A stretch of 13,642 nucleotides of DNA, from NCBI GenBank assembly GCA_900547645.1, contig URHP01000040.1:1-13642 (forward strand). Direction: 5' to 3'. Below, piece after piece: positions 1 to 13,642 of the stretch. Both the position numbers and the translations under genes were made by a program. The DNA is from an uncultured Eubacteriales bacterium. Lineage in GTDB: Bacteria > Bacillota > Clostridia > Christensenellales > Borkfalkiaceae. The first letter of the stretch is position 1; every line of letters begins with the position of its first letter. The notes under the pieces were generated by a model. It did no database searches. It saw only the letters and a list, made by a program, of their open reading frames with translations, and had not been told where the DNA came from.

Positions 1-2
1 AT

Positions 3-200
3 TTGGCGGCGGAGGGGCGCAGGCTTGCGAATGCCACGTTCTCTGCAAGCCATGCGTGCGATACCTATTCCGCGCTCAATTACGCGATGGATCTGACTCC
101 GCTCATGGATATAACCATAGATATTGCCGACTATATAGCAGACTATATCGACCGCTTCAAAATGCAGGTCATGGAAACGATCGGCAGGCTTTATCAATAG
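3..200 (+). CDS. C-terminal end of an unrecognised protein, cut by the left edge
   Basis: An open frame enters from the left edge and ends at TAG 198-200, giving the last 65 or so residues of a protein whose start lies outside the window. The apparent TTG at position 3 is probably just an internal Leu codon, as no ribosome binding site is visible. The residues look like normal folded protein: a short run with repeated ADYI units (IADYIADYIDRF) followed by an amphipathic end (MQVMETIGRLYQ). No signal peptide, membrane helix or catalytic motif can be seen. I do not recognise the family and assign no function. It points toward the minus-strand tRNA, and I see no clear terminator of its own in the 150 bases that follow. 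It could be a chance frame, but the composition argues mildly for a real gene. Confidence 0.4.
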   Translation: MAAEGRRLANATFSASHACDTYSALNYAMDLTPLMDITIDIADYIADYIDRFKMQVMETIGRLYQ

Positions 201-300
201 GTCGCCGCACCTTCACAGAAGGAAATTGCGCCGATGATCCATACAGTCGCCGGAAAAGAGTCTGGCTTTGGGTTTGCGGGGTGCCGAAGACGTGAAAATA

Positions 301-325
301 GCAGCCTGAAAGTATTTCAGACTGC
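301..325 (-). terminator. Rho-independent terminator of the tRNA-Leu gene
   Basis: Read on the minus strand this is an 11-bp stem (GCAG, then a U-G pair, then CTGAAA) closed by a 3-nt loop, followed by the short T-rich stretch TATTTTC. The one non-Watson-Crick position is a U-G pair only on the minus-strand RNA and a C-A mismatch on the plus strand, which fixes the orientation. It begins 28 bases beyond the CCA end of the tRNA. The U-tract is short, so efficiency is uncertain. Confidence 0.65.
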
Positions 326-353
326 CATGATCCCCCGACTTGCGGTGTCGAGA

Positions 354-440
354 TGGTGCGAGTAATCGGATTTGAACCGATACGGGATCGCTCCCGAGGG
401 ATTTTAAGTCCCTTGCGTCTGCCGGTTTCGCCATACTCGC
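354..440 (-). tRNA. tRNA-Leu (anticodon TAA), CCA encoded
   Basis: The reverse complement folds as a class II tRNA. A 7-bp acceptor stem GCGAGTA/TACTCGC is followed by discriminator A and an encoded CCA. The anticodon stem is AGGGA/TCCCT with loop CTTAAAA, giving anticodon TAA, which reads UUA leucine codons. The long variable arm CGGGA-GCGA-TCCCG is typical of leucine tRNAs. The T arm is ATCGG-TTCAAAT-CCGAT. The length including CCA is 87 nt. It is a single gene, not part of a visible tRNA cluster, with its own promoter about 50 bases upstream and a hairpin terminator downstream. Confidence 0.97.
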
Positions 441-491
441 GTATATTTTTGAAGTTTGCGTCCGCTGATCCTGCTGCAGCGGCATGGGGAA

Positions 492-520
492 ATTATAGCA
501 AAACGGCGGAAAGATGTCAA
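492..520 (-). promoter_or_regulatory. Consensus sigma-A promoter for the tRNA-Leu gene
   Basis: On the minus strand there is a perfect -35 TTGACA (515-520), a 17-base spacer, and a perfect -10 TATAAT (492-497). A TGC just before the -10 forms an extended -10 element. Transcription would start near 485, about 45 bases before the mature tRNA. A full consensus is what is expected for a stable RNA gene. Its -35 lies 121 bp from the -35 of the divergent XRE-gene promoter. Confidence 0.9.
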
Positions 521-593
521 GTGGGTTTGAGGTGCGTACAAAGATGCCGCAAAAATTTTGCCGCGTCGCACGGGAGGAGAGCGCGTCTTCTGA

Positions 594-635
594 AATTCGA
601 AGAGATTCTACCGCAATTCGACAAAGTTCTACCGC
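594..635 (+). repeat. Two tandem 21-bp direct repeats upstream of the regulator promoter
   Basis: Copies at 594-614 and 615-635 abut exactly and match at 17 of 21 positions. Both begin with AATTCGA and end with TTCTACCGC. The second copy stops 6 bases before the -35 of the XRE-gene promoter. A 21-bp period is about two helical turns, so two proteins would sit on the same face of the DNA. Position and period suggest an operator, perhaps for autoregulation by the XRE protein; this role is inference only. Confidence 0.6.
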
Positions 636-641
636 CGGTAT

Positions 642-670
642 TTGACAGGACGGCCGTAAGGGGGTACAAT
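642..670 (+). promoter_or_regulatory. Sigma-A promoter for the XRE regulator
   Basis: A perfect -35 TTGACA (642-647), a 17-base spacer and -10 TACAAT (665-670), one base off consensus. The predicted start near 677 leaves a leader of about 23 bases before the TTG start codon at 700, just enough to hold the ribosome binding site. Confidence 0.85.
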
Positions 671-686
671 GTCCGTATTCTGATTC

Positions 687-692
687 AGGAGG
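687..692 (+). promoter_or_regulatory. Ribosome binding site that fixes the TTG start of the XRE gene
   Basis: A perfect AGGAGG stands 7 bases before TTG at 700-702. No ATG or GTG is available at suitable spacing in that frame, and translation from this TTG yields a complete XRE helix-turn-helix start, so the rare start codon is well supported. Confidence 0.85.
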
Positions 693-699
693 CGGAACA

Positions 700-1457
700 T
701 TGAACGCATTCGGAAATTTTCTGTATTCTCTGCGCAAAGAAAAGGGGATGACGCAGCAGGAGCTTGCCGATCTGTTGGACGTCACAAATAAGGCGGTCTC
801 CAAGTGGGAGACGGGGAAGCATTCCCCGAGACGGCGCAGCTTGTGCCGATCGCCGACGTGTTCGGCGTGACGGTGGACGAGCTGCTGCGCGGCAGACGCG
901 CGGAGGCGCCCATGTCCGCGTCCGGGACGCAGGCGGCTGCCATGTCCTTGCCAAGGGGCGCACAGAGTGCGGACATGCCCGCGGTATCCGATTCGGCGGT
1001 CTGGCGCAGAACGCGCACTGTGCTTGCGGTCGCGGCGGCGGGGATCGTGATCTTTGCGCTTGCATATCTGATCGCGGCATGTCTCACGGAGGGCGTCGCG
1101 CTCCGTGAGGTCATCGTGCGCGGTTCGGTATGTCTGTTTCTGATGGCGCTTGCGGCGGCGGGGAGCTGTCTGCTCGGCATCGTTCTGACGCAGAAACTGT
1201 ACGCTGCGGTGCAGGATGATGCGCGGCGCGTGTTCTCGCGTTTACGCTGGACGGGCATCCTCGGGCTTCTCGTTCTCATGCTCGGCGTGTGCTGCTTCGT
1301 GTTCTTTCCGCTCTATGCGATGCCGGCGTACGCGAATAACGCTGCGTATGTCGCGGGAATGACGGCGGGAAGCGCGTTTGCCGTTGCCGCGGCGGCGCTG
1401 TTTGCTGCCGGAGGGGTTTCCTTCCTCTCATATATGCGAAAAAATTCGCGCGAATGA
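700..1457 (+). pseudogene. XRE-family membrane-linked transcription regulator, frameshifted in the HTH domain
   Basis: Two overlapping frames together make one protein of about 252 aa. The first frame starts at TTG 700 and encodes a typical XRE DNA-binding domain (MTQQELADLL, then VTNKAVSKWETGK), but leaves the family pattern at about 820 and stops at TGA 868-870, giving a 56-aa product. The missing half of the domain (FPETAQLVPIADVFGVTVDE) continues in the frame one base back, after which come a linker and four hydrophobic helices (roughly 1018-1083, 1108-1190, 1252-1311 and 1342-1422), ending at TGA 1457. One extra G in GGGGAAG-CATTCC (816-825) would restore the family sequence KWETGKAFPE. 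The architecture, an N-terminal HTH plus a small multi-helix membrane domain, is common in Firmicutes. Regulation is probably local; the targets are unknown. The shift may be a real mutation or a consensus error. Promoter and ribosome binding site are intact, and the C-terminal frame shows no other damage. Confidence 0.8.
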
Positions 1458-1462
1458 TACAT

Positions 1463-1500
1463 GACGAGATCCCTCTCCGAAACCGGAGAGGGATCTCGTC
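1463..1500. terminator. Perfect 17-bp stem-loop between convergent genes
   Basis: GACGAGATCCCTCTCCG, a 4-base loop AAAC, and the exact reverse complement. It lies between the end of the XRE gene (1457) and the end of the EF-G-like gene (1513), so it can serve both directions. Neither side has a strong T-run, so it may act by blocking or stabilising 3' ends rather than as a textbook intrinsic terminator. Confidence 0.7.
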
Positions 1501-1512
1501 TGTATGCAGCGT

Positions 1513-3564
1513 TTATTTGGCAGCGTTCAGAAGATTCTGCAGCACGTTGTCGGGCGCCTGTTCGTAGCGCGCGAAACTTTCGGTGAACTTGCCGCGTCCC
1601 TGCGTCATCGAACGCAGGCTTGTGGCGTAAGTGAGAAGTTCGCCCTGCGGCGCTTCCGCCGTGATCACCTGCATGCCGTCCTGCGAATCCATGCCGATGA
1701 TGCGCCCGCGCCGTTTGTTCAGATCGCCCATGACGTCGCCGACGTACTGCTCGGGAACGGCGATCTTGAGGTGCGAGAGCGGCTCCAGCAGGACGGGATT
1801 GGCGCTTTTGATGCCCTCTTTGAAGGCGATCTCCGCCGCCGCCTTGAACGCCGCTTCGGAGGAGTCGACGGGGTGGAAACTTCCGTCGTACAGCGTTGCC
1901 TTCACGTGAATGACGGGGTAACCCGCAAGCACGCCGTGGGGCAGGCATTCCATGAGACCTTTTTCAACGGCGGGAATGTATTGTTTGGGCACGGTGCCGC
2001 CCACCACTTCGTCCACAAATTCGAAATCTTTTTCGCACGGTTCGAAGCGGATCTTGCAGTGACCGTACTGTCCGTGTCCGCCTGTCTGCTTCTTGTGCTT
2101 GCCTTCGACGTCCGATTTGCCGCGGATGGTCTCCTTATAGGCGACCGCGGGGGAGCGGAACTCGGCATCCGCGCCGAATTTTGCCTTGAGCTTTTTCTGG
2201 ATGACGTCAAGATGGACCTCTCCCTGTCCTCCCACGAGCGTTTCGCCCGTGTCGGGGTTCTTGCTGATGGTAAAGCTCTTGTCCTCTTCGGCAAGGCGGT
2301 TGAGTCCGCCGAATACCTTGTCTTCCGTGCCGCGCACCGTCGCATAGACCGCCATGAAGAGGACGGGTCTGTGGAAGGGGATGGGATCGAACATGACGGG
2401 CGCATCCTCTGCGCACAGCGTGTCGCCCGTGCCCGTGTTGGTCAGTTTGCTGACCGCGCCGATGTCGCCCGCGCCCAGCTCCGTGAGCGGTTCGAGCTTC
2501 TTGCCGCGGATCAGGTAGACGGCGCTGATGCGTTCCGTCGTGTTCGTGTTGGGATTGAGCACGCTCATGCCGGGTTTGAGGCACCCGCGCACGACGCGCA
2601 GATAGTTCATCTTACCCACAAAGGGATCGACGGCGGTCTTGAAGATCTGCGCCGCAAAGGGACCGTCCGGATCGCAGGGGATGCCCACGACGGTGTTCTT
2701 TGTCAGGTCGGTCGCGGGCTGTTCGGCGCGCTCCGCTGCCTCGGGCAGGTACTTGACGATCTCGTTCATCAGGTTGATGACGCCCTTGTTCTGCAATGCG
2801 CTGCCCGCCATGACGGGGATGACGTTGATGTTGAAGATGCCCTTGCGGATGCCGTGGATCATGTCCTCGCGTGACAAAAATCCCTGTTCAAAGTACTTTT
2901 CCAGCAGGACGTCGTCGTTTTCCGCCGCCGTCTCGGTGAGGGCGAGCTGCATCTCCTCGTAGTCGCGGCGGTATTCTTCGGGCACCGCGATCTCTTCGGG
3001 CCCCGTGTTGGTAAAGTGGTAAGCCCTGCCCGTCAGCGCGTTGGCGTTGCCCGTCATCTTCTTGCCGTCCATGATCGGGATCTGGATGGGCGCGAGTTTG
3101 TTTTTGTATTTTTCGCGGAACGCCGCAATGGTCGCGGGATAGTCGGCGTTCTCCTTGTCCATTCCGTTGATAAAGATGATGACGGGTTTCTTTGCGCGCA
3201 GGCAAAGATCGATCGCTTTTTCCGCGCCCACCGTCACCGTGCCGTTCGCGCCCGTGACCACGATCGCCGCGCCGCATGCGCGCAGCGCTTCGGAAACTTC
3301 GCCCTCGAAATCGTAGAATCCGGGAACGTCGATGAGGTTGATCTTGACGTCCTTCCAGGTGATCGAGGCGACGGAAAGGGAAACGGACATCTTGCGCGCG
3401 ATCTCCTGTTCGTCGAAGTCGGAAACGGTGGTGCCGTTGTCCACTCTGCCCATGCGTTCGATGACGCCGCTGTTGAACAGCATCGCTTCGAACAGGGTGG
3501 TCTTGCCTTCGCCGCTGTGTCCGATAATGGCTACGTTGCGGATATCCTTTGCCGAAATACTCAT
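1513..3564 (-). CDS. Elongation factor G-like translational GTPase
   Basis: 683 aa with the full five-domain EF-G layout, slightly shorter than canonical EF-G (about 700 aa). The G domain has a P-loop GHSGEGKTT at residues 15-23, a G3 motif DVPGF at 79-83 and a G4 motif NGMD at 133-136. Domain III carries the NPDTGETLVGGQGEVHLDV region. Domain IV contains TGGHGQYG and DGSFHPVDSSEAAF; domain V begins near PVLLEPLSHLKIAVPEQYVG. Canonical EF-G has AHIDAGKTT, DTPGH and NKMD, so the histidine used for GTP hydrolysis is Phe83 here. The switch I region (EIARKMSVSLSVAS) also differs from the usual RGITI. These differences are features of the EF-G-like paralogue group (FusA2-type), so I do not call it the essential fusA. 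No ribosomal-protein or tufA genes are adjacent, as expected for such a paralogue. The start is ATG 3564 with AAGGGGA 6 bases upstream. Its ribosome-related role is inferred from the family; the precise function is unknown. Confidence 0.93.
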   Translation of the reverse strand: MSISAKDIRNVAIIGHSGEGKTTLFEAMLFNSGVIERMGRVDNGTTVSDFDEQEIARKMSVSLSVASITWKDVKINLIDVPGFYDFEGEVSEALRACGAAIVVTGANGTVTVGAEKAIDLCLRAKKPVIIFINGMDKENADYPATIAAFREKYKNKLAPIQIPIMDGKKMTGNANALTGRAYHFTNTGPEEIAVPEEYRRDYEEMQLALTETAAENDDVLLEKYFEQGFLSREDMIHGIRKGIFNINVIPVMAGSALQNKGVINLMNEIVKYLPEAAERAEQPATDLTKNTVVGIPCDPDGPFAAQIFKTAVDPFVGKMNYLRVVRGCLKPGMSVLNPNTNTTERISAVYLIRGKKLEPLTELGAGDIGAVSKLTNTGTGDTLCAEDAPVMFDPIPFHRPVLFMAVYATVRGTEDKVFGGLNRLAEEDKSFTISKNPDTGETLVGGQGEVHLDVIQKKLKAKFGADAEFRSPAVAYKETIRGKSDVEGKHKKQTGGHGQYGHCKIRFEPCEKDFEFVDEVVGGTVPKQYIPAVEKGLMECLPHGVLAGYPVIHVKATLYDGSFHPVDSSEAAFKAAAEIAFKEGIKSANPVLLEPLSHLKIAVPEQYVGDVMGDLNKRRGRIIGMDSQDGMQVITAEAPQGELLTYATSLRSMTQGRGKFTESFARYEQAPDNVLQNLLNAAK

Positions 3565-3628
3565 AATTTGTCCCCTTATCGAAATTTACAGCCGTATAAA
3601 CTGTGCGTTTGTGACAGCCGCTGTTTCT

Positions 3629-3656
3629 ATTATACAGGAAATCGCGGAAAAATCAA
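3629..3656 (-). promoter_or_regulatory. Promoter of the EF-G-like gene
   Basis: Minus-strand -10 TATAAT (3629-3634), a 16-base spacer and -35 TTGATT (3651-3656). The leader to the start codon is about 58 bases. It is divergent from the ribokinase promoter, with about 80 bp between the two -35 elements. Confidence 0.7.
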
Positions 3657-3737
3657 TACCCGCGGCAAAAATAATTGTGTCCGCCGGATAAAAAAACGCT
3701 GAACGGTGCGCCAGGAAGGGAAAAATCCGGGCGGGGG

Positions 3738-3766
3738 TTGACTTTTTCCGGAGAATGTGTTATATT
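3738..3766 (+). promoter_or_regulatory. Promoter of the ribokinase gene
   Basis: -35 TTGACT (3738-3743), a 17-base spacer and -10 TATATT (3761-3766). The predicted start is near 3773, followed by a leader of about 32 bases that contains the ribosome binding site AAGGGGGTG (3791-3799). I see no operator-like repeat around it. Confidence 0.75.
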
Positions 3767-3804
3767 AAACACAGATCGGGGGAAGCTGAAAAGGGGGTGC
3801 ATCC

Positions 3805-4725
3805 ATGCGTATCTACATTGTCGGAAGCCTGAACATGGACCTTGTGATCCGTGCGCCGCGCGTGCCGGAGGCGGGCGAAACGCTCTCGGGCGAGGGATTT
3901 ATGACCAATCCGGGCGGCAAGGGCGCCAATCAGGCGGTCGCCGTGGCAAAATTGGGCGGCGAGGCGTACATGGTCGGCTGCGTGGGGCGGGAGTTTGGAC
4001 GGGAACTGACGGACGCGCTGCGCGGCTACGGCGTCCATGCCGATTATGTACAGACGGAGACGGATATTTCGAGCGGGATCGCCGTGATCGTCGTGGCGGA
4101 AGGGGACAACCGCATCATTCTGGACGCGGGTTCCAACGCGCGCACGGACGGAGAACTCATTGACAGGGCGCTCGCGGGCGCGCGTGCGGGCGATTACCTT
4201 CTGTTGCAGCTGGAGATCGGGCTGCACGCCGTCGGGCATGCCCTGAAGGCGGCAAAGGCAAAAGGCATGGTCACCGTGCTCAATCCCGCGCCTGCGGCCC
4301 GCCTTCCGCAAGAGCTGTACGCATTCTGCGATTGGTTCATGCCCAATCAGACGGAAGCAGAATTTTATACGGGGATCTATCCTTCGGACGAGGAGAGCAT
4401 CCGCCGCTGCGCCGAGAAGCTGCAGTCGCTGGGGATCGGAAACGTCCTCATCACGCTGGGGACGGACGGTTCTGCCTGTGTGAGCGGCGGCGTGTTCCGC
4501 CGCACGGACGCCGTCCCCGCCGAAGCGGTCGATACGACTGCGGCGGGCGATACCTATGTGGGCGCGTTCGTCACGCGGCTTTCGGAGGGTGCCGACATCG
4601 ATACGGCAATGCGCTTTGCCAGCACGGCATCCGCCGTCACCGTCACGCGCCGCGGCGCGCAGTGCGCCATTCCCGTGCGCGCGGAGGCGGAACGTTACGC
4701 CGCAGAAAAGGGCGTGGCGATCTGA
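3805..4725 (+). CDS. rbsK: Ribokinase (PfkB family)
   Basis: 306 aa, close to the 309 aa of E. coli RbsK. It would phosphorylate D-ribose at O5 with ATP in the cytoplasm, feeding the pentose phosphate pathway. The N-terminus VGSLNMDLVIRAPRVPEAGE and the sugar-binding stretch NPGGKGANQAVAVAKLGG (from residue 35) match the first PfkB signature. The second signature is DTTAAGDTYVGAF, with D243 and the anion-hole run ending at the catalytic base D249. NQTEAEF precedes the nucleotide-binding part, as is usual in ribokinases. The start ATG 3805 has an AAGGGGG site at good spacing. The gene is monocistronic: its own promoter lies upstream and a strong palindrome follows, and no ribose transporter or nucleoside hydrolase is next to it. 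Another PfkB sugar or nucleoside kinase is possible, but the N-terminal motif favours ribokinase. Confidence 0.9.
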   Translation: MRIYIVGSLNMDLVIRAPRVPEAGETLSGEGFMTNPGGKGANQAVAVAKLGGEAYMVGCVGREFGRELTDALRGYGVHADYVQTETDISSGIAVIVVAEGDNRIILDAGSNARTDGELIDRALAGARAGDYLLLQLEIGLHAVGHALKAAKAKGMVTVLNPAPAARLPQELYAFCDWFMPNQTEAEFYTGIYPSDEESIRRCAEKLQSLGIGNVLITLGTDGSACVSGGVFRRTDAVPAEAVDTTAAGDTYVGAFVTRLSEGADIDTAMRFASTASAVTVTRRGAQCAIPVRAEAERYAAEKGVAI

Positions 4726-4750
4726 ATATTGATATATAACGGAATACGGC

Positions 4751-4794
4751 AAAAGGGTGCGCCGCCGCGGGATCCCGCGGCGGCGCACCCTTTT
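4751..4794. terminator. Bidirectional terminator: perfect 44-nt palindrome
   Basis: The 22 bases at 4751-4772 and those at 4773-4794 are exact reverse complements, centred on GATC. The stem is GC-rich (GGGTGCGCCGCCGCGG) and flanked by AAAA on the left and TTTT on the right, so either RNA strand ends its hairpin with a short U-run. It lies between the convergent ribokinase (ends 4725) and AraC (ends 4800) genes and can terminate both. Confidence 0.92.
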
Positions 4795-4799
4795 CGGGG

Positions 4800-5684
4800 T
4801 TACAGGCTCAGCCGGTTGGCGGAGCGGAATTTCAGGGGCGAAAGCCCCGTTTTTTGTTTGAACAGATTGGAAAAATAATAGGTATCGGCAAAACAGAGCT
4901 GTTCGCTGATCTCATATACGCGCATATTGGTGGTGAGCAGCAGCTGTTTTGCGACCTGGATCTTTTTATCAAGGATGTACTGATAGGGGGAAACGCCGTA
5001 ATGTTTGGTAAATTCCCGCGTGATCTGCGATTTGCTGATGTTCAGCTGCTCGCTGACTTTTTCAATGGAGATCTTGCGGTAGATGCAGATGTCGAGCGTC
5101 TCTTTGACCAGATTTGCCACCGAGGAAGCGCTTCCCTTTGCCTTCCGGTTGCGCGCAAGGCGGAGCGCGATCTCAAAGACGATGCCCGAGACATCCAGAT
5201 ACACTTCGTCGTTGCTGTCGCTCTTCTGCGCAAGTTCCAGCAGCTTTTCAAACAGATCGCGGCAGCCGGAAGCGGGGAACACGACCTGATCGGCAAGTCC
5301 GTACGTCGCGAAAATATCGGTAAAGATCTCGCTGAAAAAGTTGATCCAGATCTTTTCGTAGGGATGTTTCCTGTCCGCGCCGTAGCGGTGGGGCTTCCCG
5401 GGCTGCAGAAGGTAGACGCAGTCCTCCGTTACTTCCTCCCGTCCCGCTTCCGTTTCGACGTAGCCGTTGCCGGAGATCACATATTCGAGCACGAAGTAAT
5501 CCCCGTGCTTGCGTTCGATAAAGTAATCTTTGTCGGGATAGGTGATCCCGATCGTCTCCACGCGCAGCGGATACTGTTTGAGCGGATCATGGGTAAAGCC
5601 GATGAACGCTTCCTGCTGCGTGCTTCCGTAGGAGATATTGCTTTTCGGATCGGTCAGTTTTCCCTTGTAATGCATCAAATCCAT
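4800..5684 (-). CDS. AraC-family transcription regulator with N-terminal cupin sensor
   Basis: 294 aa. The N-terminal half (about residues 20-130) is a cupin-like ligand domain, with the run YVISGNGYVETEAGREEV and the turn LLQPGKPHRYGAD seen in sugar-responsive members. The C-terminal 100 or so residues form the double helix-turn-helix: the first HTH contains SIEKVSEQLNISKSQITREF and the second VYEISEQLCFADTYYFSNLF, followed by the family signature FKQKTGLSPLKFR. It is divergent from the GH31 lipoprotein gene, the usual arrangement for an AraC activator and its target, so a role in glycan-induced expression of that unit is a reasonable inference. The start ATG 5684 has only a poor ribosome binding site, and Met4 could also serve. 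A 7-bp inverted repeat (AATGAGG/CCTCATT, 5699-5728) lies in the leader. The sugar ligand cannot be read from the sequence. Confidence 0.92.
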   Translation of the reverse strand: MDLMHYKGKLTDPKSNISYGSTQQEAFIGFTHDPLKQYPLRVETIGITYPDKDYFIERKHGDYFVLEYVISGNGYVETEAGREEVTEDCVYLLQPGKPHRYGADRKHPYEKIWINFFSEIFTDIFATYGLADQVVFPASGCRDLFEKLLELAQKSDSNDEVYLDVSGIVFEIALRLARNRKAKGSASSVANLVKETLDICIYRKISIEKVSEQLNISKSQITREFTKHYGVSPYQYILDKKIQVAKQLLLTTNMRVYEISEQLCFADTYYFSNLFKQKTGLSPLKFRSANRLSL

Positions 5685-5734
5685 AAATTTCTACCAAGAA
5701 TGAGGGCAGTATGCTTCAAATCCTCATTTTTTCG

Positions 5735-5782
5735 ATTGATTATTCTATTTTCCGGACGAAAATGATATTGTATATTGATTAT
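5735..5782. repeat. Repeated 9-mer ATTGATTAT, candidate AraC operator
   Basis: Exact direct copies at 5735-5743 and 5774-5782, 39 bp apart. They lie in an AT-rich island between the divergent AraC and GH31 genes. The second copy overlaps the -10 of the AraC promoter. AraC-family proteins commonly bind direct-repeat half-sites, so these are candidate half-sites for activation of the GH31 gene and autorepression; this is inferred from position only. Confidence 0.4.
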
Positions 5783-5807
5783 AGCAGAAAGTGTGTACGC
5801 TTGTCAA
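5778..5807 (-). promoter_or_regulatory. Promoter of the AraC-family gene
   Basis: Minus-strand -35 TTGACA (5802-5807), an 18-base spacer and -10 TATAAT (5778-5783), with a TGC extension before the -10. The leader is about 87 bases. No comparably good plus-strand promoter is visible for the GH31 gene; TATATT at 5771-5776 with a poor -35 is the best candidate. That fits a promoter needing an activator. Confidence 0.8.
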
Positions 5808-5826
5808 TTTCTGAAAGCGAATTTCA

Positions 5827-5877
5827 GGGGGTACCCCCTTTGCGTTCCCTTGCGGGAACGCAAAACACAACGCAAGG
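5827..5877 (+). promoter_or_regulatory. Structured 5' leader of the GH31 gene
   Basis: Three elements are stacked just before the ribosome binding site. First is a 12-nt palindrome GGGGGTACCCCC (5827-5838). Second is a hairpin TTTGCGTTCCC-ttgc-GGGAACGCAAA (5839-5864, 11 bp). Third is a second copy of AACGCAA at 5869-5875, equal to 5857-5863. TTGCGTT (5840-5846) can therefore pair with either copy, and the loop region CCTTGCG (5848-5854) is complementary to CGCAAGG (5871-5877). The last of these lies just before the AAGGAG site at 5879-5884. Alternative folding near the ribosome binding site is possible; no known riboswitch class is recognised. Confidence 0.5.
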
Positions 5878-5889
5878 TAAGGAGAAAAA

Positions 5890-8800
5890 ATGAAAAAGAA
5901 ACTGATGGTACTGTTATCTGCAATGTGCGCGCTGTGCCTTTCTGCGGGCATCTTCGCGGCATGCCAGCCTGCGGATCCGGGCAGCAGCGGGAACAACGGA
6001 GGGACTTCCGGCACGCCCAGCCAGCCCAATCCGCCCACGCAGCCGACGCAGCAGAGCGAGGTCACCTCTCTCACGTTCGGCGACGTGCGCGTTCAGCTTC
6101 TGTCCGATACGATCGTCCGCATCGAGCAGAAGGGGCCGGAGGGGTTTGAAGACAGACCCAGCTATATCGTCACCAACCGCACCGATTGGGAGCCGGTGGA
6201 ATATACGCAGGCTTCCGCGAACGGCGAGACGACGCTGAAGACGGCGAACTATATCGTACATATTCCGGACAGCGCTTCGGCGGAATCCGTCTATATCACG
6301 TCTGCCGAGGGCGACGCGCTCTACAATTACGGCGGCATGACGGATACCAACGTCTACCTTCCCAGCCCGTCCGACGAGCTGCAGAGCTGGTACTTTACGG
6401 ACAGCCCGCGCATCATTCCCTCCGAGTACGGCTATTCCGTCAACGAAGACGGCGGCATTCTGCAGGATTGGGATTTCGATAACGATGCGACGGACATCTT
6501 TGTCTTTTTGCCGCTCGGCGATTACGAACAGTTCGCCAATGACTATATCGACGTGACGGGGGAATCTGAGATGGTCTCCCTGCAGATGCTCGGCTTCTGG
6601 GATTCGCGCTGGTATGCGTACAGCGCCGAGACCGCGCTGCAGCAGATCAAGGATTATACCGACAGGGGATATTCCATCGACGTGCTCGTCATCGACACCG
6701 ACTGGCGCAATTCGGGCGCAACGGGCGGCGTCGGTTACGACATCAACACCGATCTGTTCCCCGACATGGCGGGATTTCTGGACGACTGCCATGACCTGGG
6801 CGTCAACGTCATCTTCAACGACCACCCCGAACCCGTGACGAGCGGCAACGGGCTGGACAAGGAAGAAGTCGCTTACCGCAACGAAAATCTCACGCTCATC
6901 CTCTCGCTCGGGCTCGACTATTGGTGGTACGACCGCAACTGGTCGGTCGCGCTCAACAGCTGCGATCCCGATATTTCCGTCTATGCGTTCGGAATGTATG
7001 CGTACAACTGGGTGACGCAGGAATATCTGGAGAGCATCACCGATCTCAACGAATATGCCGAACGCGCGCTCATCATGGGCAACGTGGACGGCTGTCTGCA
7101 CGGCAAGTGGAACTACGCTTCCGATCTTTCCGCGCACCGCTATACCATTCAGTGGACGGGCGACATCGGCTCCACGTCCGACGCGCTCGCCCAGGAAATT
7201 TACGCCGCCGTCTTCGGCGGGGCGGAAGTGGGCATTCCCTTCATGTCCTCGGACATCGGCGGTCATACGCAGGCGGTCACCGATGAAATGTACGTCCGCT
7301 GGTTCCAGTACGGCGCGCTCTCGTCCATCCTGCGCGTGCACTGCACGAAGGCTGACTATATCGGCGGGCAGGAAGGGCGCATGCCCTGGCTGTTCGGCGA
7401 CACGGCGGAAGAGGTCGCGCACGTCTATATGGATATGCGTTACCGTCTGCTGCCGCTGTACTACTGTCTGGCGCGCGACAACTATGAAAGCGGTCTGCCC
7501 GTCATGCAGCGGCTCGACATCGAGTATTCGCAGTATGTCGAGGCGTCCCGCAACGACGAATATCTGCTCGGCGACTATATCCTCGTGGCGCCCATTGCCG
7601 AAGCGACGCCCACCGCAATGGCGGACGATTCTCAGCTCACCCACACGGCGGACGGCGGCGAAGCGCCCGGGCTGGTGGCGGAGTACTACAACAACACGAC
7701 CTGGAGCGGCAATCCCGTCCGCACGCAGGTGGACGCCAATATCGGCTTCGACTGGGGCCCAAGCGGTCCCGCGGGGCTGGGCAGCGATAACTTCTCCATC
7801 ATATGGAGAGGAAACATTACGATCGGCGCGCAGCCCGCGCAGCTCATGTTCTTTGCGGACGATACCGTCATCGTCTATATCGACGGTGAAAAGGTCGTGG
7901 ACAGCAACGGGACTTACGACAACTATCTGAAGACGAGCAAAACGTACGAGGCGGGCACCACGCATTCGATCGAAGTGCAGTATGTGGAGGAAGGGGGGAA
8001 CGCCCATATCTACATGTACTATGTGGAGGCAAACGCCGCGCAGACGCAGTACAATTCCCGCACGGTGTTCATCCCCACCGGTACGTGGATCGACGTCTGG
8101 ACGGGCGAAACGTTCGTGGGACCGCGCACGGTCACCGTGTCGCACCCGCTCACGACTTCTCCCATCTTCGTGCGCGAGGGCGCGCTCATCGCGCTTGCGC
8201 CCAACATGGTGAACACGAGCGCGGAGACGTGGAGCGAACTCACGCTCGACGTGTATCCTTCCACCAATTTCGAAGCCGGCATCACGCTATATGAGGACGA
8301 TACGACTACGGTCGCCTATAAGCACGGCGAATATCGCAAGACGGACGTGACCATGACGTACGCCGGCAACAATACCATCCTCGTCAATATCGGGGCGGCG
8401 GTGGGCGAGTTCGAAGGGAACCGCGCCTTTACGGAGCGCACCTGGAACGTGCGTGTACACGTCTATGACGATTGGGGCAGCGTATCCGGCGTGCGCATCA
8501 ACGGCAGATACGTTTCCATCAAAGAGTTTGCAAAGTCCGCCGACGCGGAGCCGTTCGCCTTCTCGGGCGCGGCGGCAGACAGCGGCATCGCGGAGTTCTC
8601 GTTCACGGGCTCCGTCAAGGAAGCGTACGAGATCGAGATCATCTTCACCTCCACGCAGGAGACCGACGTCAACGAAGACTATGACGACACCGCGGTCGGC
8701 TTTACGCTGACGGCAGGCGAAGCGGGCGGTTCCGCAGACTTCGATGCGCTCGGCACGCTCGGCTGGACGGCGTACGGCGAAGGCAGTGCGGAATTCCCCG

Positions 8801-10371
8801 TCAACAAGGCGGGCGTTGCACCGCTCATCAATTACACGGGTTCCTACGATACGCCCTGGATCGTGGACAACAACTTCTTCAACAAGACGTATACCGACGG
8901 AAGCGGCACGCACACTTCTGCAAGCGCCATCGCTTCCCAGAAGGATTTCTCCATCGAACTCACCACCACGGGGCAGAAGGCGTATTACATACTGTATGTC
9001 GGCGGCAATCAGTGCACGGCAAAGATCACCGTCCGTGACCGCGCCGGAAACGTCAGCACGGAAATGTTCGGCAATATCGACGGCAGATTCCTGCGCCGTA
9101 TCGTGATCGAGGTCGAGGAAGGTCCCGTCAGCACGCTCTATATCACCTATTCGGCGCTTGCAAGCGAAACGGCGGGCACGGGAACGCCCACCTACCTTAC
9201 GCTGCTCGGAGGCTTTGTTTCGGAGACGCTTCCCGAAGTCGGGCAGCTGCCCGAGACCACCGCGGAAGCCGAGATCGTCTCCTCCGAGACGCCCGATGCC
9301 GTCGTCAACCTGAGCGACGCCGGGCGCGACCTTGGCGCCGAGACGCTCGACTGGGCGCAGTTCAGCGACAACGGCAACAACCCCGAGCGCCGTCTGTACG
9401 GCGAGGGCATCGACAGCGTCGTATTCGCAAGCGGCGCGGGCTTCGGCGATTATTCCGCAAGCATCATGTACAGCGACGGTTCCGCCAACGGCGCGCACAC
9501 GGGCACCCGCAACGGCACCTGCACCTCCGGCTATATCACGGCGAACTTTACCGTAACGCCCAACGTGCAGTATATCCGCCTGTATACGGGCACCTATCAG
9601 TCCGAAAACGTGGTGGAAGTGTATGACCAGAACGGCGAACTGCTCGCGCAGGCGCAGCCCTTCTCCGCAACTTCCGTTGCGGTGACGCGCGTCGTCACCA
9701 TTGCGGTGAGCGTGGAAGAGGAGGAGAGCATCATCGTCATCATCCGTTCGATGAACGCGGGCACCGGCGGCAACGTCTCGCTTGCGGCGGTCGCTTTGCT
9801 CGGACAGTACGCGGGCGAGAGCCCCGTCACGGCGGAAGCGACGCGGGAAGCGCTTCCTTCCGAGGTCGATCTGACCGAGCGCGGCTCTTCCGACTGGATG
9901 TATGTCGTGGGCAACGCTTCGAAAGAGGGCGGCACCGCGATCTCGGCGCTCACCTTCAGCTCCTATATCAACAACTATAACGATTACGCGGCGACGTTCT
10001 CCTACCTGAACGGCAGCACGCCCGCGACGGGTACGGACGGCAGAGAGTGCGACTTCGCGCGCTTCACCGTGACCGTGGACGAAGACACCGACTATATCGA
10101 ACTGTATGTCAGCGCGATGGACGGTGCGTCGGCGGGCGTCGTGATTCTGGACGAAGCGGGAAGAGCGGTGCTGCGCGCCGAACCCGTGACCTCGTCGAGC
10201 GGAAAGACGTGCGCCGTCATCCGCATCGCGGTCGACGCGGCGGAGGAAGAGACGCTCACCTTCATGTGCTATAAGGGCGGGAACGCGGGCGGCAAGTTCG
10301 GACTTGCCGCGATCGCGGTCGGCGAAGCGGCGCCTGCAACGGACGCGACGCAGGATGCAGATAACGCATAA
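5890..10371 (+). CDS. Surface lipoprotein: GH31 glycosidase with inserted PA14 domain and three C-terminal beta-sandwich modules
   Basis: 1493 aa. A lipoprotein signal peptide (KKK, a hydrophobic run, lipobox FAAC with Cys25) is followed by a Ser/Gly/Pro/Gln linker, so the enzyme is expected to be lipid-anchored outside the membrane. GH31 enzymes hydrolyse or transfer alpha-linked sugars with retention. The N-terminal beta-domain spans about 60-230 and the (beta/alpha)8 barrel starts near GFWDSRWYAYS (235). The likely nucleophile is Asp348 in WWYDRNW, and the likely acid/base is Asp425 in QWTGDIGS; MSSDIGGH (Asp455) is also family-typical. A PA14-like domain (about 594-716, GLVAEYYNN onward) interrupts the C-terminal beta-domain between LLGDYILVAPIAEA and RTVFIPTGTWIDVWTGE. 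Three modules follow at about 950-1110, 1138-1307 and 1325-1478. The nucleophile context differs from the usual WxDxNE, so the substrate is not predicted. The start ATG 5890 has GGAG 5 bases upstream. The gene lies opposite the AraC gene and 44 bp before a second lipoprotein. Confidence 0.92.
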   Translation: MKKKLMVLLSAMCALCLSAGIFAACQPADPGSSGNNGGTSGTPSQPNPPTQPTQQSEVTSLTFGDVRVQLLSDTIVRIEQKGPEGFEDRPSYIVTNRTDWEPVEYTQASANGETTLKTANYIVHIPDSASAESVYITSAEGDALYNYGGMTDTNVYLPSPSDELQSWYFTDSPRIIPSEYGYSVNEDGGILQDWDFDNDATDIFVFLPLGDYEQFANDYIDVTGESEMVSLQMLGFWDSRWYAYSAETALQQIKDYTDRGYSIDVLVIDTDWRNSGATGGVGYDINTDLFPDMAGFLDDCHDLGVNVIFNDHPEPVTSGNGLDKEEVAYRNENLTLILSLGLDYWWYDRNWSVALNSCDPDISVYAFGMYAYNWVTQEYLESITDLNEYAERALIMGNVDGCLHGKWNYASDLSAHRYTIQWTGDIGSTSDALAQEIYAAVFGGAEVGIPFMSSDIGGHTQAVTDEMYVRWFQYGALSSILRVHCTKADYIGGQEGRMPWLFGDTAEEVAHVYMDMRYRLLPLYYCLARDNYESGLPVMQRLDIEYSQYVEASRNDEYLLGDYILVAPIAEATPTAMADDSQLTHTADGGEAPGLVAEYYNNTTWSGNPVRTQVDANIGFDWGPSGPAGLGSDNFSIIWRGNITIGAQPAQLMFFADDTVIVYIDGEKVVDSNGTYDNYLKTSKTYEAGTTHSIEVQYVEEGGNAHIYMYYVEANAAQTQYNSRTVFIPTGTWIDVWTGETFVGPRTVTVSHPLTTSPIFVREGALIALAPNMVNTSAETWSELTLDVYPSTNFEAGITLYEDDTTTVAYKHGEYRKTDVTMTYAGNNTILVNIGAAVGEFEGNRAFTERTWNVRVHVYDDWGSVSGVRINGRYVSIKEFAKSADAEPFAFSGAAADSGIAEFSFTGSVKEAYEIEIIFTSTQETDVNEDYDDTAVGFTLTAGEAGGSADFDALGTLGWTAYGEGSAEFPVNKAGVAPLINYTGSYDTPWIVDNNFFNKTYTDGSGTHTSASAIASQKDFSIELTTTGQKAYYILYVGGNQCTAKITVRDRAGNVSTEMFGNIDGRFLRRIVIEVEEGPVSTLYITYSALASETAGTGTPTYLTLLGGFVSETLPEVGQLPETTAEAEIVSSETPDAVVNLSDAGRDLGAETLDWAQFSDNGNNPERRLYGEGIDSVVFASGAGFGDYSASIMYSDGSANGAHTGTRNGTCTSGYITANFTVTPNVQYIRLYTGTYQSENVVEVYDQNGELLAQAQPFSATSVAVTRVVTIAVSVEEEESIIVIIRSMNAGTGGNVSLAAVALLGQYAGESPVTAEATREALPSEVDLTERGSSDWMYVVGNASKEGGTAISALTFSSYINNYNDYAATFSYLNGSTPATGTDGRECDFARFTVTVDEDTDYIELYVSAMDGASAGVVILDEAGRAVLRAEPVTSSSGKTCAVIRIAVDAAEEETLTFMCYKGGNAGGKFGLAAIAVGEAAPATDATQDADNA

Positions 10372-10386
10372 CGGTCCGATGACCGT
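10371..10386 (+). other. Small intergenic hairpin after the GH31 stop codon
   Basis: ACGGTC-cgat-GACCGT is a 6-bp stem overlapping the last base of the stop codon. No T-run follows, so it is not a convincing terminator. It could be a 3'-end stabiliser or an internal processing point that sets different levels of the two proteins. It may also be chance. Confidence 0.3.
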
Positions 10387-10394
10387 AAATCTAT

Positions 10395-10406
10395 AAGGAG
10401 AGAGGG
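10395..10406 (+). promoter_or_regulatory. Ribosome binding region of the BIG2 lipoprotein gene
   Basis: A purine-rich stretch AAGGAGAGAGGG precedes ATG 10416. AAGGAG ends 15 bases before the start, longer than ideal; the following GAGGG ends 9 bases before it and is the more plausible pairing. The start is also supported by the signal peptide that follows at once. Confidence 0.6.
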
Positions 10407-10415
10407 AAAAATCGT

Positions 10416-13400
10416 ATGAAGATCAGAAAGTATCTGCTCAGCGTGCTCATGCTCGTCATGTGCGTTGCGTTCTCCGTGGGACTGGCGGCATGCCAGGACA
10501 AAGCTCTTACCTATGAACTCAACAAGACGAGCCTCACGCTGGAAGTGGGGGAGACCGATCAGCTCACCGTCTCGGTGACGCCCGAACAGGAGACCGATCC
10601 CGCATTTGCTTCGGACAACGAAGCGGTCGCAACGGTCAGCGACAGCGGACTTGTCACCGCCGTTGCAGAGGGCAGCGCCACGATCACGGTCACGGTGGAC
10701 GGTCAGACGCTCACCTGCGCCGTGACCGTCACGGAAAAGACGCTTCCGCCCATCGGCGAAGAGTACGTTCTCAATAAGACGCGCATGGAACTTGTCGAGG
10801 GCGCGACGGACCGGCTCACCGTGTTCGTCAATTCCGACAAGGAGATCACGCCGGAATTTACTTCCGCCGATCCATCGATCGCTTCGGTCGCTGCGGACGG
10901 CACCGTTACGGCGGTCAAGGCGGGCAATACGACGATCACGGTCATGGCGGACGGCAAGGAGCTCACCTGTGAAGTCATCGTTTCGGCAAAGCCCGTCGAT
11001 TATACCTATGCGATCAGTGAGGAGACGCTCGCGCTCGACCTCGGAGACAGGCAGCAGCTCAGCATCCTGATCACGCCCACGCCCGACGTCGCTCCCACGG
11101 TGGTATGGGAGACCACGGATGCGCGCGTTGCGTCCGTCGATCCCGCGGGCAACGTCACGGCGGTAGGGGAAGGCAGCGCCACGATCACGGCGACGGTCGC
11201 AGGGGAAAAGTTTACCTGCGCGGTCACGGTCTCTTCCGCAATTGAAGCGGAGGCAGCCGCTGTCACCGACATTGCCGGGAAGATGATCGATCTGAACGCG
11301 GGCACTTCCGAATACGGCAACCTGTATTGGGAGCACTATTATTACGACGACGGCGTGACGGCGGACAAGAAGACGGACGGCGCGGACTATATTCCCGAAG
11401 ATGAAAACGGCGCGTATCTGCTCGCCAACGGCTTTGCGGATTACAAGGCGTCGCTCTATTGGGCGGCGGCGGAGCGCCACTATAATGTGCGCACGGGCGT
11501 GCATTCGCTGCCCGGCACCACGGCTCCCGTTTCGGTCATCGTCAAAGTCGATCAGAACGTGAAAGCGATCCGCGTCTATACGGGCGCATGGAACGCGACC
11601 AACACGACGGCGCTGTATTATAACGGCGTTGCCGTCTCCGCGGCGGCGTCCTTTGCAACGGGCGACGATCCCCTTGCAAGGCTCGTCGAATTCCCCGTCA
11701 GCTACACGGGGACGGGCACGATCGAGCTGGAAGTGCGCATCACGCCTTCGAACGTGATCGGACAGGGCAACTGCTCGCTGTCGGCGATCGCGGTCATGGG
11801 CGGCGCGCCCGCGTCTGCCGCGCCTTCGACTTCGGTCACGGCTACGCCCGGCGTGGCGATCGTGAGCGGTACGCAGGTCGATCTGACGCAGGTCGGCAAC
11901 CTCGACTGGCTGTACACGGGCAGCTCCGATAACACCGCCAGGACCAAGGCGGGCGGCACGAATATCATTGCGGACAGCTTTACGGCACAGACCACCCGCG
12001 ACGGCGGCTACCGTGCTTCCTTCAGCTGGACGGACGAAGAGAGCGGCGCGCAGCCCGCGTCTTCGGAGACGGGCACCCGCTTCAGCACGGGCTGTCTGAG
12101 CATCGACGTGAACGTCGATCAGTTCACGCAGGAAGTCACCCTGTACCTGGGCATGTTCGACGGAACGGCATACATGGGCGTTCTCGATTCGGACGGCAAT
12201 CTGATCTACAACGGCGAAGTGCTCGTATCCCCTGCGGGCGAATCGGCGAACTGCGCCGTCACGTTTGACGTTGCGGCGGCGGAAAAGGATACGCTCACGT
12301 TCGTCATCTATAAGATCGGCAACAACTGCTCGCTTGCGGCGGTCGCCGTCAGCGGATACGGCTATCAGCTCAGCCGCACGTCGGCAGAGATCAAGGACAA
12401 CGAGACGCTGCAGCTCACCGTCACCCGCACGGACGGCGAGGAAGTGACGGGCACGATCTCCTGGGATTCGACCAATAAGGCGGCTGCGACCGTCAACGGG
12501 CAGGGGCTTGTGACGGCAGTTGCCGCGGGCGAGACGACCATCACCGCTACGGTGGACGGCGTGGAACTCTCCTGCAGACTGACGGTCGTCAGCTCCGCGA
12601 TCGAATATGAGTATGCGCTCAATGAGACCGATCTCGAGCTCACGCTCGGGCAGAGCGTCGGCCTCAAGGTCACCATTACGCCCGAACCTGCCGTCATGCC
12701 TTCCGTCACATGGCGCACGGACGACGATACGATCGTCACGGTCGATCAGAGCGGCAAGGTGACTGCAGTCGGATTGCAGGGCGGCACGACAAAGGTCTAC
12801 GCCAAGATCGACGGCGTCGAACAGGAACTTTCCTGCGAAGTGACGGTCGCCGCGTCTCCCGTCACCGCAACGGCGGGGACTCCTGCAGACGTGATGGGCG
12901 CAGGCGTCGACCTCAATGCGGGCAGCGAGACGTACGGCAATCTGTATTGGGAACATTACTATTATGACGGCGCCGTCAAGGCGGACAAAAAGTCGTCGGA
13001 TGCTTCGTACATTGCCGAAGAGACCAACGGTGTATACGCGCTGAAAAACGGCTTTGCGGATTATAAGGCGTCGCTCTATTGGGCGGCGACGGAGCGCCAC
13101 TACAACGTGCGCACGGGCGTGCATTCGCTGCCCGGAACGGAGACGCCCGTCTCCATGACGATCCGGGTGACAAAGGACGTCAAGGTCATCCGTGTTTACA
13201 CGGGCGCATGGAAGGCGACGAATACCACGGCTCTCTATTATAACGGGATTGCCGTTGCGGTGGCGGATTCCTTTACGGCAGGAACGGACAGCGCTTCGCG
13301 CATGGTTGAGTTTACGATCGACTATGACGGCAGCGATGCGCTTGCGCTGGAACTGCGGATCACGCCTTCGCAATTGGACGGCGGCAACAACATGCTCGTT

Positions 13401-13642
13401 GCGGTCGTACTTCTCGGCGGCGAACCTGTGACGAGCACCGCAACGACGTCCGTTGATTTCAAAGGCGCAAACGAATATACGGGCAGCGGCAACGATCCGC
13501 AGACGATCTTCGATCTGACGCAGGAAGGCACGCTCGACTGGTATTATGCAAGCTATGACAAGATCCCCGATGAAAAGAACGGCGGGAACAGCATTGTCTC
13601 CGATTCGCTTACTGTAGACGGAACGGGGTATGATTGGGCATA
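10416..13642 (+). CDS. Modular surface lipoprotein with BIG2 Ig-like domains and glycan-binding-like modules, cut by the right edge
   Basis: The frame is open from ATG 10416 to the edge (1075 codons, no stop). A signal peptide ends in lipobox LAAC with Cys26. Visible order: BIG2 domains at about 33-107, 117-191 and 198-274; module A at 291-463; module B at 488-649; BIG2 at 650-726 and 733-812; a second module A at 831-1002; and the start of a second module B from 1032. Each BIG2 domain has the family pattern, for example SGLVTAVAEGSATITVTVDG and a closing TC.VTV strand. Modules A and B begin (V/I)DL, contain a W/Y-rich strand and end with a GN.SL.A.AV.GG-like strand, resembling the C-terminal modules of the preceding GH31 protein. 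BIG2 domains usually form stalks or adhesive surfaces outside the cell, so this is probably a cell-surface glycan-binding partner co-transcribed with the glycosidase. No catalytic motif is visible in the part present; the missing C-terminus could hold one. Confidence 0.88.
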   Translation, partial: MKIRKYLLSVLMLVMCVAFSVGLAACQDKALTYELNKTSLTLEVGETDQLTVSVTPEQETDPAFASDNEAVATVSDSGLVTAVAEGSATITVTVDGQTLTCAVTVTEKTLPPIGEEYVLNKTRMELVEGATDRLTVFVNSDKEITPEFTSADPSIASVAADGTVTAVKAGNTTITVMADGKELTCEVIVSAKPVDYTYAISEETLALDLGDRQQLSILITPTPDVAPTVVWETTDARVASVDPAGNVTAVGEGSATITATVAGEKFTCAVTVSSAIEAEAAAVTDIAGKMIDLNAGTSEYGNLYWEHYYYDDGVTADKKTDGADYIPEDENGAYLLANGFADYKASLYWAAAERHYNVRTGVHSLPGTTAPVSVIVKVDQNVKAIRVYTGAWNATNTTALYYNGVAVSAAASFATGDDPLARLVEFPVSYTGTGTIELEVRITPSNVIGQGNCSLSAIAVMGGAPASAAPSTSVTATPGVAIVSGTQVDLTQVGNLDWLYTGSSDNTARTKAGGTNIIADSFTAQTTRDGGYRASFSWTDEESGAQPASSETGTRFSTGCLSIDVNVDQFTQEVTLYLGMFDGTAYMGVLDSDGNLIYNGEVLVSPAGESANCAVTFDVAAAEKDTLTFVIYKIGNNCSLAAVAVSGYGYQLSRTSAEIKDNETLQLTVTRTDGEEVTGTISWDSTNKAAATVNGQGLVTAVAAGETTITATVDGVELSCRLTVVSSAIEYEYALNETDLELTLGQSVGLKVTITPEPAVMPSVTWRTDDDTIVTVDQSGKVTAVGLQGGTTKVYAKIDGVEQELSCEVTVAASPVTATAGTPADVMGAGVDLNAGSETYGNLYWEHYYYDGAVKADKKSSDASYIAEETNGVYALKNGFADYKASLYWAATERHYNVRTGVHSLPGTETPVSMTIRVTKDVKVIRVYTGAWKATNTTALYYNGIAVAVADSFTAGTDSASRMVEFTIDYDGSDALALELRITPSQLDGGNNMLVAVVLLGGEPVTSTATTSVDFKGANEYTGSGNDPQTIFDLTQEGTLDWYYASYDKIPDEKNGGNSIVSDSLTVDGTGYDWA
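11286..11804 (+). repeat. Module A, first copy (intragenic repeat)
   Basis: Encodes residues 291-463 of the BIG2 lipoprotein. The DNA from 11427 to 11515 matches 13047-13135 at 85 of 89 positions, with a constant offset of 1620 bases for the aligned part of the module. Shared protein landmarks are YGNLYWEHYYY, NGFADYKASLYWAA, ERHYNVRTGVHSLPGT and IRVYTGAW. Confidence 0.9.
12906..13421 (+). repeat. Module A, second copy (intragenic repeat)
   Basis: Encodes residues 831-1002 and pairs with the copy at 11286-11804. The conserved core is nearly identical in DNA, while the linking and C-terminal strands have diverged, as expected for an older duplication under selection on the core. It is again followed by a module B start (13509 onward), so the duplicated unit is BIG2-A-B. 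Confidence 0.9.

Follow-up and report, generated by a model that had tools for sequence, protein, structure and literature searches.

Why should a glycosidase and the non-enzymatic protein encoded beside it carry copies of the same modules? The question arises from a stretch of 13,642 nucleotides of an uncultured Eubacteriales bacterium of the Borkfalkiaceae (contig URHP01000040.1, positions 1 to 13,642; hereafter the window), in which the gene of a glycoside hydrolase family 31 (GH31) enzyme is followed by that of a stalk protein built from BIG2 repeats, behind a divergent AraC-type regulator gene. On balance we favour the reading that these modules are a new family resembling carbohydrate-binding modules (CBMs), carried as a tandem A-B pair on an exo-glycosidase and on a multivalent stalk, and that the AraC-linked pair of proteins acts as a surface unit for glycan capture and trimming; glycan binding, co-transcription, surface display and a common or overlapping ligand are the parts of it that we infer. 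This reading is based on a homology of the modules far above that of shuffled sequences, a modelled beta-sandwich with CBMs among its neighbours, a recurring gene unit, fusions to glycosidases, the conserved aromatic positions 94 and 98 on one strand, and a GH31 enzyme closest to a solved alpha-1,3-glucosidase. The two proteins and their modules, which are divided into A-type (A, A2, G2), B-type (B, B2, G3) and the GH31-specific G1, are laid out as follows.

5890..10371, plus strand: GH31 glycosidase of 1493 residues with modules at its C-terminus (Pfam Glyco_hydro_31_2nd 1.8e-38, PA14, Glyco_hydro_31_3rd, DUF5110)
8671..9225, plus strand: module G1, divergent, GH31-specific (profile comparison, tree; model score 70.6, see below)
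9292..9816, plus strand: module G2, A-type (stalk A profile, tree)
9853..10335, plus strand: module G3, B-type (stalk B profile, tree)
10416..13642, plus strand: BIG2 stalk lipoprotein, truncated by the window end (Pfam Big_2 3e-56, five stretches)
10506..11234, plus strand: three BIG2 repeats (Pfam Big_2; bounds approximate, set by hand)
11268..11810, plus strand: module A, A-type (A profile from other stalks)
11865..12365, plus strand: module B, B-type (B profile from other stalks; model)
12363..12851, plus strand: two more BIG2 repeats (Pfam Big_2; bounds approximate, set by hand)
12888..13427, plus strand: module A2, A-type, 64% identical to A (module-to-module BLASTP)
13500..13640, plus strand: start of module B2, B-type, truncated by the window end (BLASTP to B, 4e-8 over 42 residues)

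A preliminary description of the window had proposed that G1, G2, G3, A and B follow one plan, shared by the enzyme and its non-enzymatic neighbour. Module-to-module BLASTP linked B with G3 (2e-19), G2 with A2 (7e-14), G2 with G3 (4e-11), G2 with A (4e-9) and A with B (1e-6). Ten other stalk proteins supplied 21 A-type and 21 B-type modules for independent test profiles; no GH31 protein was included, nor were P0010 and P0011, which are 98-99% identical to the stalk of the window. With the A and B profiles, respectively, G2 scored 110 and 72 bits, G3 39 and 83, A 189 and 34, and B 55 and 148. The best shuffled module reached 13.0 bits with the A profile and 11.2 bits with the B profile, 6000 shuffles having been made, of which HMMER reported 5428 and 5558. 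By these scores (34-189 bits against at most 13) G2, G3, A and B are one homologous family, and for these four the common plan stands. The best BLASTP value for G1 was 0.018, near noise; it scored 12.6 bits with the B profile and was not listed with the A profile. Against the B profile seven of its orthologues reached 22.8, 16.3, 15.6, 15.5, 12.1, 10.8 and 10.6 bits, the last two falling short of the best shuffle. When 16 G1 copies were compared profile to profile, the probability of a match to the B type was 95% (E 2.7e-8) and that of a match to the A type 71% (E 3.6e-5), both values being for one comparison alone. On these results G1 is probably, and not certainly, a divergent member of the family.

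The history of the sharing was read from a tree of 281 rows taken from 311 modules (a quick method with SH-aLRT support), from which identical copies had been dropped, together with any module beyond the third of a GH31 protein and the modules of five open reading frames (ORFs) with neither GH31 nor BIG2 outside the second bacterial family described below. The G1 copies form one clade (support 99). The GH31 copies of A form one clade (84) that is sister to the stalk copies of A (joint fork 90), and the GH31 copies of B likewise form one clade (97) sister to the stalk copies of B (joint fork 89). The simplest reading is that the enzyme and stalk genes came to share an A-B pair a single time and have inherited it since. 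The alternation of A and B is not strict: five-module stalks are ordered A-A-B-A-B, and the first two modules at L047 are both A-like. BLASTP, profiles and tree all bear out the earlier statement that the enzyme and its neighbour carry the same module family.

The sequence motifs first noted by eye also held on a wider sample: of 132 non-redundant modules, 95% have Trp at position 15, 98% an aromatic residue at position 94 and 80% Ala at position 159. The strongly conserved aromatic or polar positions are W15, D48, W55, D57, Y94 and W98; aromatic 94, Gly96 and aromatic 98 are conserved at alternate residues of one strand, with the aliphatic positions 91 and 93 adjacent. The AlphaFold model of module B is a confident beta-sandwich, with a predicted local distance difference test (pLDDT) score of 91.4 (70.6 for G1). 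A beta-sandwich is the fold of most CBM families. Many of the closest solved folds of the module B model are CBMs, including CBM4, 6, 16, 22, 35 and 61, although such VIA-align matches do not decide membership of a specific CAZy CBM family, and a viral structure library returned diffuse matches to tail proteins and CBM-like domains. Kinship to the CDTb/iota-toxin, tailspike and Cry domains, which equal the CBMs in fold score, was considered and rejected, since the fold is common and the Z scores are tied, with neither a sequence match nor a context.

Neither Pfam nor NCBIfam gave a family above its cut-off on 35 modules, and when two single stretches and a pair of module profiles were searched against PDB sequences, all matches stayed at chance level. 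Gmad2, which is in the precomputed family list of P0019, was rejected as weak and partial, matching three of the 35 modules (best E 0.0046) and the whole of P0019 with 24.7 bits against a cut-off of 25.7. PF26182 and PF26918, from the precomputed lists of stalk proteins, were likewise rejected as module families: both are absent from nine module-bearing GH31 proteins (P0001-P0008 and P0025) and therefore follow the BIG2 part and not the modules; the Pfam scan made in this work did not report either. The best reading of sequences and model is that the modules would constitute a CBM-like family that is new as far as Pfam and NCBIfam go. Of the earlier proposal of a new CBM family, what stands is thus the absence of a catalogued family above cut-off, the CBM-type beta-sandwich and the fusions to carbohydrate-active enzymes, with binding itself putative. 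Literature listings, a search that did not extend to subscription papers or CAZy, gave no description of the module or of the AraC-GH31-stalk unit. The modules are most suitably classed as a domain family that is uncatalogued but of a known kind, and whose sharing between enzyme and stalk is unusual.

The recurrence of the gene unit was followed in thirteen genomes of the window's lineage with a module-bearing GH31 in the fetched loci (in L039 the GH31 part is presumed from the tail, which is all that lies on the contig). Seven of the thirteen (L032, L033, L034, L035, L038, L047, L048) have a divergent AraC gene followed by GH31 and a module-bearing BIG2 stalk on the same strand, which agrees with the adjacency behind an AraC gene described for the window. 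An AraC homologue adjoins the unit in all 8 loci with a module-bearing stalk, and was not found in L040, L042, L043, L046 (where the contig edge directly follows GH31) or the short L036. Two tandem homologues of the window AraC lie between the enzyme tail and the stalk in L039 (L039:9756-11563). At a contig edge in L036 (L036:530-5674) a single ORF of 1715 residues, which contains no BIG2, runs from a C-terminal portion of GH31 with PA14 and DUF5110 into seven modules, an instance of the enzyme naturally fused to the module array of the stalk. Further neighbours vary: L033 and L034 have housekeeping genes, whereas in L047 the neighbours are a solute-binding protein, another GH31 and an ABC-transporter ATPase that has a MalK OB domain; L048 too has a second GH31.

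Modules were also found beyond this lineage. Loci from the family of genome G853, the second family, hold at least 24 ORFs with modules, 9 of which are GH31 with PA14, and further module ORFs of that family lie outside this tally (e.g., G1091 contig 28 and G983 contig 126). Pfam, run on selected pieces of the second-family ORFs, identified GH92 in L083 and L094, MGH1/GH63-like domains in L062, L088, L089 and L093, and an esterase-like domain in L061. The Pfam cut-off for a C-terminal dockerin was exceeded in L085 and L087 and missed in L088 and L086; as module-bearing glycosidases here end in dockerin-like domains, a cellulosome-like assembly is suggested for this family. Large module-bearing ORFs were seen in L060, L090, L092, L098 and L100. 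In four further genomes of the class the modules are on large proteins (L107, L108, L109) or on GH31 with PA14 (L110); SLH domains were present in L107 and L109, the two tested. The L107, L108 and L109 proteins are long, with N-terminal modules, and Pfam gave their large central part no catalytic family. The module is thus a discrete non-catalytic domain joined to GH31, GH92, MGH1/GH63-like and esterase-like enzymes, on carriers anchored by lipoprotein signal, dockerin or SLH domain. Fusion to several carbohydrate-active enzymes together with such anchoring is usual for CBMs.

The size of the family was estimated by protein and genome searches. At E ≤0.01 the enzyme tail and the stalk modules found at least 9 and at least 11 proteins, that is at least 20 module proteins with 77 modules in all, the stalk proteins carrying 2 to 6 each; with a B-type module as the query, a third search reached 35 proteins at E ≤1, overlapping the first 20. 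Module matches were present in the G001 lineage in 12 of 201 genomes of the family, 8 of 297 of the order and 2 of 398 of the phylum, and in the G853 lineage in 10 of 250 of the family and 6 of 291 of the class, it being noted that the genome sets overlap and that several matches are single and weak; G060, G214, G388 and G412 have one weak match each. A contig scan with one peptide pattern, which is no census, found at least three loci, and a single-protein scan of 21 genomes gave no match and was uninformative, as the centre genome was also unmatched. The preliminary description had likened the modules to a module of Paenibacillus and actinobacterial surface enzymes, a kinship that is putative; motifs similar to those it gave for that module, such as DWVHF and WNDGTPTA, occur in genomes of the phylum, and the three named relatives are metagenome-assembled Clostridia. 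A phage or plasmid origin was rejected, there being no plasmid match by tblastn and no viral-contig relative.

What the enzyme acts on bears on what the modules may bind. The GH31 identity is supported by the Pfam match (1.8e-38) together with the barrel and two catalytic Asp residues: candidates D348 and D425 are both present in 20 of 20 aligned relatives, the nucleophile D348 being assigned by motif and not by alignment to 7wj9. Against the PDB the best match of the GH31 region is 7wj9 (E 2.9e-41), with 6jr6 almost as good (4.5e-40). The paper that names 7WJ9 describes LlGH31_u1, an alpha-1,3-glucosidase strict for nigero-oligosaccharides, whose acid/base Asp and NDHP histidine correspond to D425 and H312 of the window enzyme if an offset of 20 residues, deduced from Asp394 of that enzyme, is applied (PMC9061262). 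The match covers three separate stretches only, and the term PA14, a domain present in the window GH31, does not occur in that paper (PMC9061262). The likeness to the GH31_u1 group is best-match evidence; an alpha-1,3-linked glucan as substrate of the enzyme or ligand of the modules would be a guess from sequence likeness.

The other features of the unit are given here.

4800..5684, minus strand: AraC-type regulator, divergent from the GH31 gene (Pfam HTH_18 4.5e-18, AraC_binding 4.4e-13)
5890..5964, plus strand: lipoprotein-type signal of GH31, ending FAAC (Cys25; by-eye reading of the translation)
6055..8470, plus strand: catalytic region of GH31, with D348 (6931-6933) as candidate nucleophile and D425 (7162-7164) as candidate acid/base (closest solved relative 7wj9)
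7663..8025, plus strand: PA14 inserted in the GH31 C-terminal region, residues 592-712 (Pfam PA14 3.4e-14)
10372..10415, plus strand: GH31-stalk gap of 44 nucleotides with AAGGAG at 10395
10416..10493, plus strand: lipoprotein-type signal of the stalk, ending LAAC (Cys26; by-eye reading of the translation)

The signals FAAC and LAAC agree, by eye, with the lipoprotein character first proposed for both proteins. A scan for terminator-like sites placed none within the gap between the two genes, which is 44 nucleotides long and contains AAGGAG; GH31 and stalk are therefore likely to be on one transcript. The stalk relative P0010 (99% identity in the searched region) is 1740 residues long at full length and is made up of three blocks that combine BIG2 repeats with A and B. 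The minus strand of the window also holds a tRNA-Leu and an EF-G-like gene, and the plus strand a PfkB kinase gene. In the AraC-GH31 gap a sigma-70-type site on the minus strand (5778-5807, 12/12: TTGACA, 18 nucleotides, TATAAT, with TG before the second hexamer) is directed toward AraC. A 1034-residue open frame antisense to the stalk gene (10269-13373, minus strand) is probably a by-product of the high GC in that stretch.

Under the favoured reading, AraC would sense a sugar and switch on enzyme and stalk. The BIG2 stalk lipoprotein would present its repeated A-B pairs away from the membrane and grip an alpha-linked glycan polymer with several weak A-B sites in a row at once, while the G1-A-B tail of the enzyme would keep GH31 on the same glycan during chain-end trimming and sugar release. 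A wider version, which we regard as rather unlikely, would make the A-B pair the founder of a new CBM superfamily whose ligand is alpha-1,3-linked glucan or a different alpha-glycan on which its GH31, GH92 and GH63-like carriers act. The unit would then be a Gram-positive counterpart of the pairing of an enzyme with a surface glycan-binding protein, with enzyme and multivalent stalk both using one duplicated binding pair that the genes came to share once and have since inherited.

Several results weigh against the glycan-capture reading. In the fold comparison the CBM neighbours of module B score level, to about one Z, with domains of toxins, tailspikes and other proteins, and the fold is a common one. 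In the 281-module tree enzyme and stalk copies occupy separate clades with no sign of exchange, and as the copies have diverged in this way the ligands of enzyme and stalk modules may differ. In L040 and L042 a GH31 with two modules is followed by a BIG2 protein without modules (L040:10190-11239 and L042:7109-8296, lipoproteins of four BIG2 repeats each), a six-frame check of both loci having found no further modules, and L043 has a GH31 with one module and no stalk. The middle parts of L060, L092, L098 and L100 have no Pfam family; for the same reason new catalytic families are possible there.

The modules might instead bind nothing themselves and serve for spacing or stability, comparable to BIG2 or FIVAR repeats. 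Their alternation with BIG2 repeats and a copy number that varies from 2 to 6 per stalk would suit such a role, and fold matches by themselves do not establish binding, but the conserved W15, D48, W55, D57, Y94 and W98 would be unusual for a spacer and the modules are joined to several kinds of glycosidase in the second family, so that we consider this explanation unlikely. That the same pair is present on both partners, and that their genes adjoin, could also mean that the modules are docking domains by which enzyme copies bind stalk copies to form a complex. This is very unlikely given that the module-bearing enzymes of L040 and L042 stand beside BIG2 partners without modules, and that in the second family modules are on GH31 and other enzymes in ORFs that lack BIG2, some with a dockerin for assembly. 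The third alternative, that the stalk works as a fibrillar adhesin on the surface of a host or of microbes, with the enzyme trimming bound host glycan and feeding secondary, meets a divergent AraC gene and the transporter ATPase, solute-binding protein and additional GH31 near the unit in L047, all of which fit nutrient use better. We judge it distinctly unlikely, even though the plan of fibrillar adhesins is matched by a lipid anchor, a stalk of BIG2 and repeated modules of putative adhesive role (PMC9210967), and a C. perfringens GH31 with GalNAc-binding CBM32 modules is known (PMC5291390).

Comparison with known systems places the unit among familiar parts. Module B resembles the beta-sandwich families CBM4, 6, 16, 22, 35 and 61 in its modelled fold, but PDB, Pfam and NCBIfam gave no match to its sequence, its fold matches are tied with non-CBM domains, and its binding is putative. 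Sas20 of Ruminococcus bromii is described as a non-catalytic protein of a surface complex that, by means of two binding domains, assists enzymes in holding alpha-glucan (PMC9112005); the stalk is similarly a non-catalytic partner with putative binding domains, but Sas20 belongs to the amylosome, has a flexible linker and has been shown to bind starch, whereas the stalk has BIG2 repeats, a lipoprotein signal and putative binding. The C. perfringens GH31 likewise has several accessory binding modules, but its CBM32 is a known family and the abstract describes no module-sharing stalk partner (PMC5291390). With the BIG2-stalk fibrillar adhesins (PMC9210967) the stalk has in common a putative surface anchor (a lipoprotein signal, by eye), repeated BIG2 stalk domains and putative adhesive modules; it differs in that the modules are interspersed among the BIG2 repeats and common to the adjacent enzyme. 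That paper also reports that more than 90% of predicted Firmicute stalk proteins with known stalk domains have no known adhesive domain (PMC9210967).

This work ties an uncatalogued module to defined glycosidases by repeated neighbourhood and fusion, and its ligand can therefore be approached from the side of the enzyme. If the modules bind glycans, a function could be assigned to surface proteins of up to about 2000 residues in uncultured Clostridia, and there would be a clue to the substrate of GH31 relatives whose specificity is unknown.

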